A stretch of DNA of 31,260 bases from positions 1 to 31,260 of IMG/VR virus record IMGVR_UViG_3300044801_000032. One strand, written 5' to 3'. The stretch's first letter is position 1. Every line of letters begins with the position of its first letter. Of the stretch, positions 1 through 26,244 are shown piece by piece. Both the position numbers and the translations under genes were made by a program. The DNA is from a virus. Below the pieces are notes generated by a model, which saw nothing but the letters and a program-made list of their open reading frames with translations, had not been told where the DNA came from and searched no databases.

Positions 1-474
1 TCATCTTTCACCTCGCGAGAAACCCCGCCGTTCAGGGCGGGGAGGTAAGCGAGAGCGCCCATCGGGCGCTTCTCTTTGGGATTTGACATATTCAGCGATG
101 ATCGCCAGCGGAGCGCCGCCGCACGATCCGACGAAATAGGAAGGCGACCAAAGAGCCTTGTCCTTGCCGCGCATGTGGACTTCTGGCCGCCATTCCCGAA
201 GCAGTCGGCTCGAAACGCCCTTGAGCGAATTGACGAGTTTCGGCAGAACCACGGTCGGCGGGTAGGTAACGAGCAAATGCACATGATCGTCTTCGCCGCC
301 GCACTCTTGCAGAGTTGCGCCGAAGTCGCTGCATACCTTGGAGAAGATGCCGCGCAAGTCGCTGATTGCCAGTTCAGACAGCACGTCGCGGCGGTATTTT
401 GTGATAAAGACCAAATGCGCGTGAAGGGCATAGACGACATGCCGCCCCTTACGGATTCCTGCATTTTCTGGCAT
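1..474 (-). CDS. tnpA: IS200/IS605 family Y1 transposase TnpA
   Basis: 157-aa HUH-type single-strand transposase. The start is the ATG at 474 (MPENAGIRKG...); the longer open frame upstream is antisense to tnpB and is ignored. Visible family marks are the N-terminal strand segment YALHAHLVFITKYRR (15-29), the HUH pair in DDHVHLLVTYPP (His64 and His66) and the segment SYFVGSCGG (112-120). The nucleophile candidate is Tyr129 in IIAEYVKSQRE. Family members cut single-stranded ends and transfer them through a 5'-phosphotyrosine. The length is at the upper end for the family because the frame runs through the left-end hairpin. It is divergent from tnpB with a 36-bp gap. No damage is visible. Confidence 0.93.
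   Translation of the reverse strand: MPENAGIRKGRHVVYALHAHLVFITKYRRDVLSELAISDLRGIFSKVCSDFGATLQECGGEDDHVHLLVTYPPTVVLPKLVNSLKGVSSRLLREWRPEVHMRGKDKALWSPSYFVGSCGGAPLAIIAEYVKSQREAPDGRSRLPPRPERRGFSRGER
23..42. repeat. IS605 left-end hairpin
   Basis: The arms CCCCGCC (23-29) and GGCGGGG (36-42) form a perfect 7-bp stem with a 6-nt loop. It sits inside the 3' end of tnpA. It matches the position and composition of the imperfect-palindrome hairpins bound by TnpA as single-stranded DNA. The right-end hairpin has a related CCCCGG/CCGGGG stem. Confidence 0.6.
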
Positions 475-24483: not shown

Positions 24484-26244
24484 TCACGAAAATCCTTTCA
24501 CGACCGGCCTGCAAACGCACCGGCAGTTTTTTGCCTGGACATACGCATTGGATACACTATAGAATCCAGTATCGGTTTCCATGGTGTAAACATGTCCAGA
24601 AAAATACCTGATGCTCTTATCGCTCACGCTTCTAAGCTCATAGATTCTGGAGTTAAGCTGCAAGACGCGGCTGTATCTATCGGGTTTACGGCTGACGAAC
24701 TTGGTATCAAGCTCCGAGCTATCGGCGTCGCAACCGACAGGCGCAGAGACTGGAACGCTTCGGCCCCTGAAATCATCGCCATGTATCAAAGCGGGTTGGG
24801 GTCCACCGCGATCGCCGCAAGGCTTGGCGCCCCCCGTCATTCCGCCGCGAATATTCGCGACGTTTTGATCCGTCACGGCATCATGCGCAGCCGAAGCGGC
24901 GCGAACCTCACTCGCTATAGCCAAGAGAGCATTGAGAGCAAACGACAGTCCATCGCCAAAGCCCGCGCCAAGCGGCGCGATAACATGGCGCTTGGCGCCG
25001 TTACCGGGACCGGGAGACACGGCGTTGGGTTTGGCGAGGTTGAGGTCGCCAACATCTTGGAACGCGGCGGCATCAGCGTTACTCGACAAGCCGTCGTCGC
25101 CGAAAACTATCTGATCGACATTGCCGTTGGGGCGGTGGCCGTGGAAGTCAAAACCTCCTCCATCCAGGCTCACGTGACCAAAGGCAACGCGGCCCGCTTC
25201 AAACAACTCAGAGAAAGTGGCTACGCGCTTGTCTTTGTTGTTGTTAACGACATCGCCACCCTGATGCGACATGCAGACGACTTGGTCGCCATCATTAACG
25301 TCGCCAAGAGCAATCCACCCGCGGGCCGTGAGTATTGGGTGGTTAAATGTACCCTTGAGCAGATCGGCTCCAACTTTGATGTAGACCATTGGTCCGTTGA
25401 ACGGCGCGCGCCAAAGCTTACGGACACCATTCTCTAGGCCGACCGTCATATCCCCCGTGAAGCAATTTGGAAGCTCCCCAGGCAGCACGAACTTTCCAAC
25501 CTCGGGGTCGTACCAGCCCTTAGCGACGTCATAGCGTTGCTTGTCGGCGCCGGCCTTCAGATGACTCTTGCGAGGGTGCTTGCCGCCGCCTGAGTGGACC
25601 CAGACAGCTTCGGTGATCCCAAGCTCGGCCTGGCGAGCCCGCGTCAGACTTGCCGTTGCGAGGTTGTTCTGCGACCGCGCGATGAATTCGGCCCGGCGCC
25701 GCGTGACGCCAAACTGCTCCTGCAAATCCTTCGTCAACTGCCCGAGATCGCGCCCGGTCTGCACCGATCGCATCACGTAGCCCTCAACCTGCGTCAGATA
25801 TTGCTCTGGGATACTTCTGATCAGTGAGACATTCTCGCCAATCGTGGCCTGGAGCACATCGTTCTGAGCCCGCGTCATCCGGAACTCGACCGAAATACCG
25901 CTGCGCTTCAGAATCGAGCGCAGGGCCGCGTCAGACCGGTCAGAGACCGCCGTCGCGAAATAGTCGGCCATCTCCTTCGACGCCGTATCAAACCGCGCCA
26001 GCCATCGCTTTCTGAGCCCACGAATGGTGCGAAGAATTTCGGCCGCCGGGCTCGCGTCCTGGGCAATCTCTGGCTCATTCGCCCGGTACGCTGCTTTGAC
26101 AAAATAGGAGACAGACGCCGCCATTTCATCAATCAGCTTTTCGAGCTTCCGCTGATAGGCGATCTCAATCCCAACGTTCGGCCGGACCGGTGCGAGCGTC
26201 TTCTCGTTAGCCGGGCGCCTTTTCCTCGATGTAGAATGCGCCAT
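24484..26244 (-). CDS. MuF-type minor head protein precursor interrupted by an intein
   Basis: 586-codon frame. The exteins are residues 1-260 and 574-586, 273 aa after splicing, the normal size for Mu gpF/SPP1 gp7-type minor head proteins. The extein marks are EAVWVHSGGGKHPRKSHLKA, YDVAKGWYDPEVGKFVLPGE and, across the junction, LPN+CRCVCRPV, the conserved C-terminal Cys-Arg-Cys. The intein starts at Cys261 (CFTGDMTV) and ends at Asn573, with Cys574 as the downstream nucleophile. The whole frame is open, including the 282 codons antisense to the plus-strand nuclease ORF. Its place between portal and protease/scaffold genes is the usual one. The spliced protein is probably bound to the portal and injected or involved in assembly. 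Confidence 0.92.
   Translation of the reverse strand: MAHSTSRKRRPANEKTLAPVRPNVGIEIAYQRKLEKLIDEMAASVSYFVKAAYRANEPEIAQDASPAAEILRTIRGLRKRWLARFDTASKEMADYFATAVSDRSDAALRSILKRSGISVEFRMTRAQNDVLQATIGENVSLIRSIPEQYLTQVEGYVMRSVQTGRDLGQLTKDLQEQFGVTRRRAEFIARSQNNLATASLTRARQAELGITEAVWVHSGGGKHPRKSHLKAGADKQRYDVAKGWYDPEVGKFVLPGELPNCFTGDMTVGLENGVRKLWRAPFNGPMVYIKVGADLLKGTFNHPILTARGWIALGDVNDGDQVVCMSHQGGDVVNNNKDKRVATFSELFEAGRVAFGHVSLDGGGFDFHGHRPNGNVDQIVFGDDGLSSNADAAAFQDVGDLNLAKPNAVSPGPGNGAKRHVIAPLGAGFGDGLSFALNALLAIASEVRAASAAHDAVTDQNVANIRGGMTGGAKPCGDRGGPQPALIHGDDFRGRSVPVSAPVGCDADSSELDTKFVSRKPDRYSRVLQLNSRIYELRSVSDKSIRYFSGHVYTMETDTGFYSVSNAYVQAKNCRCVCRPVVKGFS
24526..25464 (-). other. Intein in the MuF-type protein (313 codons)
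   Basis: Block A is CFTGDMTVGLENGV, starting with the Cys nucleophile. Block B is LKGTFNHPILTARGW, with the T-x-x-H pattern (Thr299 and His302 of the precursor). Block F is SGHVYTMETDTGFYSVSNAY and block G is VQAKN followed by Cys of the C-extein. The usual penultimate His is Lys here; such changes are known in some active inteins. The middle ~200 residues show no LAGLIDADG, HNH or other nuclease motif in this frame; their sequence is the complement of the antisense ORF. Insertion is exactly in front of the conserved extein Cys, a functional-site choice typical of inteins. Confidence 0.92.
24592..25437 (+). CDS. Putative homing endonuclease (PD-(D/E)XK-like) antisense within the intein
   Basis: 281 aa. 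The start is the ATG at 24592; the frame further upstream is closed by a TAA near 24585 only in another register, so the start is chosen from where the protein pattern begins. Residues ~19-45 and ~60-95 look like helix-turn-helix units (LQDAAVSIGFTADELGI and STAIAARLGAPRHSAANIRD). A basic linker follows (SKRQSIAKARAKRR). The core is GFGEVEVANILERGGI, then Asp176 in LIDIAVG and Glu185-Val-Lys187 in VAVEVKTSS, a PD-(D/E)XK-like set, then RFKQLRESGYALVFVVVND, a typical following helix-strand. Nested placement inside an intein suggests homing. A weak promoter, TTGCCT-16-TACACT (24531-24558), precedes it. No good Shine-Dalgarno is seen. The first ~45 codons are more A/T-rich at third positions than the rest. 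Nuclease activity is inferred, not shown. Confidence 0.82.
   Translation: MSRKIPDALIAHASKLIDSGVKLQDAAVSIGFTADELGIKLRAIGVATDRRRDWNASAPEIIAMYQSGLGSTAIAARLGAPRHSAANIRDVLIRHGIMRSRSGANLTRYSQESIESKRQSIAKARAKRRDNMALGAVTGTGRHGVGFGEVEVANILERGGISVTRQAVVAENYLIDIAVGAVAVEVKTSSIQAHVTKGNAARFKQLRESGYALVFVVVNDIATLMRHADDLVAIINVAKSNPPAGREYWVVKCTLEQIGSNFDVDHWSVERRAPKLTDTIL

Follow-up and report, generated by a model that had tools for sequence, protein, structure and literature searches.

A MuF-type minor head protein gene on the minus strand of the window, by which we mean the whole 31 kb viral record that was analysed (IMG/VR IMGVR_UViG_3300044801_000032, 31,260 nucleotides), very probably carries a mobile intein whose homing endonuclease is encoded antisense on the same base pairs. 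The two strands of one DNA stretch would then each encode a conserved protein, with no relationship between the two. The assignment comes from comparative sequence analysis, from which we also infer the expression of the plus strand, the cleavage of empty sites and the splicing of the head protein. The locus had been singled out in a sequence-only reading, whose observation of two overlapping genes is confirmed and whose interpretation as an intein with an antisense homing-type nuclease is supported by the evidence described in the following.

The head gene, its intein and the antisense nuclease

The head gene (24484-26244, minus strand; 586 aa with the intein inside) matches Phage_Mu_F (E=1e-6) and the head morphogenesis family phrog_324 (E=2e-75). 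Its N-extein of 260 aa (25465-26244, minus strand) ends in ...GELPN, and its C-extein (24487-24525, minus strand), which is followed by the stop codon at 24484-24486, reads CRCVCRPVVKGFS. Among the N-exteins of 59 members of the family, the matches to MuF-type minor-head families were Phage_Mu_F in 37, Phage_min_cap2 in ten and VG15 in four cases. The intein that the sequence-only reading had placed between the exteins (24526-25464, minus strand) is borne out by its splicing blocks and by an AlphaFold2 model: its 313 codons extend from Cys1 to Asn313 and are followed by Cys+1 (...AKN|C), with TFNHPIL as block B (T39/H42) and GHVYTM as block F (H291). The penultimate residue before the terminal Asn is Lys and not His in the lineage of the window. 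The inteins of the family share the splicing blocks C1, TxxH, H and N|C, and the reading frame of the head gene continues on either side of the intein in every complete locus examined, bar one with a frameshift (L188).

In the AlphaFold2 model, the two ends of the intein confidently form a HINT fold, and residues 80-120 are also modelled with confidence. The N-terminal splicing half with blocks A and B and the T39xxH42 motif (residues 1-68; 25261-25464, minus strand) reaches a pLDDT of 91-98 for residues 1-60 and of 77 for residues 61-70, the C-terminal half with blocks F and G (residues 267-313; 24526-24666, minus strand) mostly 82-97, and in both halves the changes are synonymous for the intein frame. 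The middle (residues about 135-266; 24667-25062, minus strand), which is the antisense of the DNA-binding half of the nuclease, has a pLDDT of only about 30-50, and its changes are synonymous for the plus frame; such a predicted disorder is as expected if this region is kept open merely for read-through. RecA, DnaX and RadA inteins are the top PDB matches of the model (probability 0.9-1.0), with E-values that are modest because the middle is disordered. An endonuclease domain in the intein frame was not detected, as the minus-frame middle has no match to any nuclease family and is predicted to be disordered. A split intein of the fractured-gene type was considered and ruled out, since every complete two-half locus except the frameshifted L188 has a single continuous minus-strand ORF.

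On its plus strand, this stretch of DNA contains an ORF for a protein of 281 aa (24592-25437); it lies wholly within the intein, and its codons are the exact reverse complements of the minus-strand codons. The helix-turn-helix-like segments and the PD-(D/E)XK-like core that had been read from its sequence reappear in the AlphaFold2 model (mean pLDDT 89.7), in which two helix-turn-helix units and a long helix are joined to a PD-(D/E)XK core. The first unit (helices 7-43; 24610-24720, plus strand) is seen in the model, the second (helices 58-94; 24763-24873, plus strand) in the model and in a domain search, and both agree with Pfam helix-turn-helix families that are matched by relatives. The predicted nuclease core (residues 149-257; 25036-25362, plus strand) with E149, D176, E185 and K187 is delimited by conservation, model and profile. 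Among PDB structures, the model comes closest to the catalytic domain of I-Bth0305I, 3r3p (probability 0.99 and E 0.016 in Foldseek, with a TM-score of 0.62 over the 3r3p chain), and a profile match to 3r3p has E=3.8e-7. In 69 relatives, the acidic residues D176 and E185 are invariant and E149 is conserved in at least 90%, and the third catalytic position, K187, is variable. As to the His/Asp positions that would mark the EDxHD subgroup, compared here at the level of sequence, GGxWH follows the Glu in many relatives, and the window has EVKTSS.

Searches of Pfam, NCBIfam and PHROGs with the single protein yielded little, and helix-turn-helix and nuclease families emerged only with profiles and many members; these matches are mainly to helix-turn-helix models and weakly to REase_MTES_1575 or DUF559 (Pfam/PHROGs), and no PHROG or Pfam family spans the whole nuclease. 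A PADLOC search for defence systems gave no match for the nuclease. As the alignment of the entire nuclease family was too diverse for pattern scans, narrower alignments and the IMG/VR loci were used.

Distribution of the element and selection on its two frames

Homologues of the plus-strand protein, whose absence would have spoken against a gene, are abundant. A tblastn search with this protein matched 65 phage records, where most of the features beneath the matches carry an annotation as head or MuF protein and lie on the opposite strand, and further scans added about 110 IMG/VR loci. In 114 of 118 nuclease-centred loci, which were collected by nuclease homology and are in part related and hence not fully independent, the nuclease is antisense to both intein halves, in the same codon register and with one open intein frame; of the other four loci, three are truncated at the end of a contig and L046 is free-standing. 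An intein-centred scan, which was queried with the whole intein and therefore is biased towards nuclease-bearing members, found the antisense nuclease in all 74 loci with both halves. Stops inside eight intein-centred loci are natural ends or lie upstream of the start codon, except for L188, in which a frameshift destroys both frames. Thus relatives keep both frames with few exceptions, the other one being L118/L119, where the intein frame is open and the nuclease frame has an internal stop, which on sequence grounds is one rare case of nuclease decay.

Two further sites in MuF-type genes have the same architecture, one in L018 and one in mycobacteriophage Sejanus. At all three sites thus known, the nuclease is inside an intein. 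In L018 (3360-6218), a single MuF gene is interrupted by inteins at two sites, both of which have an antisense nuclease of their own, and the nuclease of the first site is longer (328 aa). The third site is found in the "capsid maturation protease" of Sejanus (L133, 794-4138), where FDVED replaces the FHGD motif described below. In Salmonella phage PK2 (L126, 1019-1828), a 269-aa antisense ORF has been called as a gene for a "hypothetical protein", and most other records that we checked miss the nuclease. The free-standing homologue (L046, 3495-4178) is arranged tail-to-tail, i.e. convergently, with an intein-less MuF gene. It may be an ancestor of the intein-borne nuclease or an escapee from it, two origins which a nuclease tree left unseparated, and its use as query for further free-standing relatives returned only L046 itself. 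A scan of genome contigs gave only three loci, all of them actinobacterial and all antisense within an intein, and three full-length members were obtained when 395 genomes of one class were searched with a profile, which suggests that the element is mainly phage-borne and rare in host genomes; a search of plasmids gave no matches.

In this codon-aligned antisense overlap, position 3 of plus-strand codons is opposite position 1 of minus-strand codons. We counted, in 38 independent pairs, the codons with a single difference that are synonymous for the nuclease or for the intein. In the middle of the element, nuclease-synonymous changes prevail over intein-synonymous changes by 1440 to 516 in plus-aligned and by 1372 to 584 in minus-aligned comparisons, and they are mostly at plus position 3. 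At the C-end of the intein, 65-70 nuclease-synonymous changes are opposed by 245-256 intein-synonymous changes (minus-aligned 65 vs 256), and at the N-end 251-254 by 456-463 (minus-aligned 251 vs 463). Selection restricted to the minus frame, which would have argued against the nuclease, is therefore not what the pairs indicate: judged from these substitutions, it is the nuclease frame that is under selection in the middle, and the intein frame at both ends.

The openness of the two frames could in principle be fortuitous. Using neighbouring genes as source of the expectation and of codon-choice controls, 585 TTA, CTA and TCA codons, each of which would terminate the intein frame, are expected in the nuclease genes and none is seen, and the free-standing L046 has two; the intein frame is thus held open by selection. 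For the plus ORF of the window alone, none of these codons is seen and about 3.3 are expected (P about 0.04), so that its open antisense frame, taken by itself, could be due to chance, and the two-gene claim rests on the relatives. How often neighbouring genes have this antisense register open over 240 codons varies with base composition, from 47% of cases above 62% G+C to 17% at 55-62% and about 1% below 55%, and the register is open in all 45 distinct inteins below 55% G+C. Codon avoidance and the neighbour control windows thus led us to reject a chance antisense ORF for the family, for which the window alone is insufficient. Taken together, the 114 of 118 loci, the pattern in the 38 pairs and the avoidance of stops place the antisense architecture far beyond chance.

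Conserved elements of the two genes share base pairs as well. The start codon of the nuclease (ATG, 24592-24594, plus strand) is the complement of the CAT codon of block-F His291, and, of 89 distinct inteins whose block F was identified, 80 have the start exactly opposite this His (74 ATG, 6 GTG). A GGAGGTTATAAACATG-like sequence commonly precedes it: the Leu of block F is encoded by CTC, i.e. GAG or GAGG on the plus strand, in 64 of 81 cases compared to 25% in exteins. The nuclease of the window has a weak ribosome-binding site, GGTG. Within the last codons of the intein, 26 bases upstream of the start codon, there is a putative sigma-70-like promoter (TGGACA-18-TAGAAT, 10/12 matching positions; 24536-24565, plus strand), for which one occurrence was found in the window and 0.6 are expected in shuffles of the region. 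Among the relatives, an exact TATAAT occurs upstream of the nuclease start in 33 of 89 inteins and in 1% of control windows, and with up to one mismatch in 69 of 89 compared to 12% of the controls. These hexamers have two preferred places in the last codons of the intein, and Ile codons in this stretch are biased to ATA and ATT. From such promoter-like sequences we infer that the nuclease may be transcribed separately from the plus strand.

A second coincidence concerns the catalytic strand of the nuclease. The intein motif D106-F-H-G-(D/H)110 (25135-25149, minus strand), of which residues 107-110 are conserved by at least 90% in 50 inteins and which lies in the confidently modelled part of the intein, is complementary to nuclease residues 182-186. 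The nuclease codons for V/I182-A183-V184-E185 are frozen (GTC or ATC in 65, GCC in 66, GTG in 60 and GAA in 63 of 69) and read F-H-G-D on the intein strand, and thus a conserved motif of both proteins resides on the same 12-15 bp. At the conserved nuclease residues E149, Q166 and A124, synonymous codons are used freely, and in the free-standing L046 the codons at the catalytic strand are not frozen.

Mobility, proposed mechanism and alternatives

An alignment of MuF loci with and without the insertion is possible in Jersey-type phages (Guernseyvirinae), where it reveals an exact presence/absence polymorphism of 816 bp. In these phages, 364 records match the MuF gene of LP31, 58 of which cover at least 80% of it and thus bear the intein, and most of those sampled below this cover lack it. 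LP31 on the one hand and MA12 and SF4 on the other have the exact junction HPN|CRS with or without the 816 bp. The Salmonella phages vB_StyS-sam and dunkel have inteins without a single difference over 816 bp, whereas their N-exteins differ at 212 of 729 positions (29%) and their C-exteins at 10 of 315, which indicates a recent transfer with one-sided co-conversion. For the lineage of the window, empty MuF homologues were found only at 43-49% protein identity (e.g. Amjad_SA, GF-2), and no relative close to the window itself was found that lacks the intein. Homing is thus supported by exact empty sites and by recent transfer, as deduced from sequence comparisons.

In the mechanism that we propose, the minus strand, as part of the late transcript, would be translated to a single long precursor, whose intein ends would fold into the HINT domain and excise the 313-residue intein, leaving the head protein intact. 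The plus strand would be transcribed from the promoter in the C-terminal codons of the intein and translated from the ATG opposite the block-F His to give a helix-turn-helix and PD-(D/E)XK/EDxHD endonuclease. The target of this enzyme would be the conserved ...N|CRC site of MuF alleles without an intein, and after the cut the intein would be copied in by recombination and repair. Separating nuclease supply from head-gene expression could offer an advantage in timing, and the architecture predicts that splicing and homing are regulated separately. A more far-reaching idea, which we put forward tentatively and regard as somewhat less probable than its negation, is that of a widespread, so far undescribed class of two-strand mobile inteins, in which the proteins are obligatorily interlocked on the same base pairs (by shared catalytic motifs and by start codon, ribosome-binding site and promoter within splicing codons) and the choice of the strand would serve as timing switch, with the nuclease being made early from a separate promoter and shut off by late head-gene transcription from the other side.

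What else could account for these observations? If only the intein frame were a gene, the plus ORF and its homologues would be an antisense echo of a conserved intein, and it is true that a codon-aligned register always mirrors similarity and that antisense ORFs of such length are frequent where G+C is high. The frame test refutes this idea, which we regard as practically negligible: the substitution pattern is frame-specific, and the similarity is therefore not an echo. Between the window and L002, identity in the middle is 0.59 in the plus frame and 0.34 in the minus frame, the plus protein folds into a known nuclease structure where the minus middle is disordered, the free-standing L046 has no intein on its opposite strand, and the register is invariably open at G+C contents where chance openness is rare. 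Conversely, only the nuclease might be functional, with a dead intein or a disrupted head gene and a minus frame that is open by chance, which would agree with a minus-strand middle that evolves like non-coding antisense and is predicted to be disordered. This is extremely improbable in view of the conserved splicing blocks, the constraint on the intein frame at both ends, the complete avoidance of TTA, CTA and TCA that the free-standing homologue does not share, and the head gene that remains in frame on both sides in all complete loci examined except L188.

With both frames being real, the nuclease could still be a defence, anti-competitor or regulatory protein and not a driver of homing, as helix-turn-helix domains could regulate transcription and as the two invariant acidic residues indicate a nuclease but not specifically a homing nuclease. 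We consider this improbable, because the nearest structure is that of a homing endonuclease, PADLOC gave no match, and the location in inteins, the exact empty sites and the recent horizontal transfer speak for homing, as does the finding that relatives at three sites in MuF-type genes are always inside an intein. There is a small but somewhat greater chance that the family is real elsewhere and that the element of the window itself is decaying or domesticated, with an inactive nuclease; the weak ribosome-binding site, the non-canonical penultimate residue and the lack of a close empty allele of its lineage point in this direction. However, the window, L002, L003, L014 and L016 all keep the frame together with E149, D176 and E185, K187 is present in the window, L002 and L003, and 67 of the 88 single-difference codons between the window and L002 are plus-synonymous. 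A mobile intein with an antisense homing endonuclease thus remains our preferred reading.

Relation to known homing systems

The components of the element are of known kinds, and it is the genetic architecture that appears to be new. The sequence-only reading knew of no described example, and we likewise found no description of an antisense endonuclease in an intein in the literature searched, which was open-licence only, so that an earlier description is possible. In this literature, mobile inteins without exception either contain the nuclease as one of their domains or, if split, have it next to them. As its ends and its middle are dominated by different frames, the element ranks among the cleaner natural examples in which the co-evolution of antisense proteins can be studied. 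The antisense nuclease also accounts for the conserved "DFHGDG" motif of head-protein inteins, and it belongs to a nuclease family that gene callers overlooked in well-studied phages. The same intein at the same site is annotated in the MuF or head morphogenesis proteins of the Escherichia phages Snoke and fEg-Eco06, whose records list the intein and omit the antisense nuclease.

Canonical homing inteins such as PI-SceI contain a LAGLIDADG or HNH endonuclease domain in frame. The element described here shares with them the HINT domain, the insertion into a conserved motif of a conserved protein, the presence/absence polymorphism and an endonuclease encoded within the intein DNA. While intein endonucleases are made as a fusion with the surrounding intein according to a review (PMC3943268), the endonuclease here is encoded by the opposite strand as a protein of its own and is not an intein domain.

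The predicted fold and the profile match to 3r3p, together with the association with phage inteins, relate the nuclease to the EDxHD homing endonuclease I-Bth0305I (3r3p) and to the nucleases of "fractured genes", which Dassa and colleagues are said to have described in 2009 as lying between split intein halves. Unlike in fractured genes, the intein is contiguous here and the nuclease overlaps the intein coding sequence in antisense, and in comparison with EDxHD homing endonucleases the order of domains is helix-turn-helix repeats followed by the nuclease. With respect to orientation, the closest parallel and, in the literature searched, the only setting reported for antisense homing nucleases are nuclear rDNA group I introns with antisense homing endonuclease genes, e.g. 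that of I-DsqI (PMC9548176), where the homing endonuclease is likewise opposite in strand to the self-splicing element. In these introns, however, the gene resides in a peripheral loop of the ribozyme and overlaps no protein frame, whereas in the MuF inteins two proteins share their codons.
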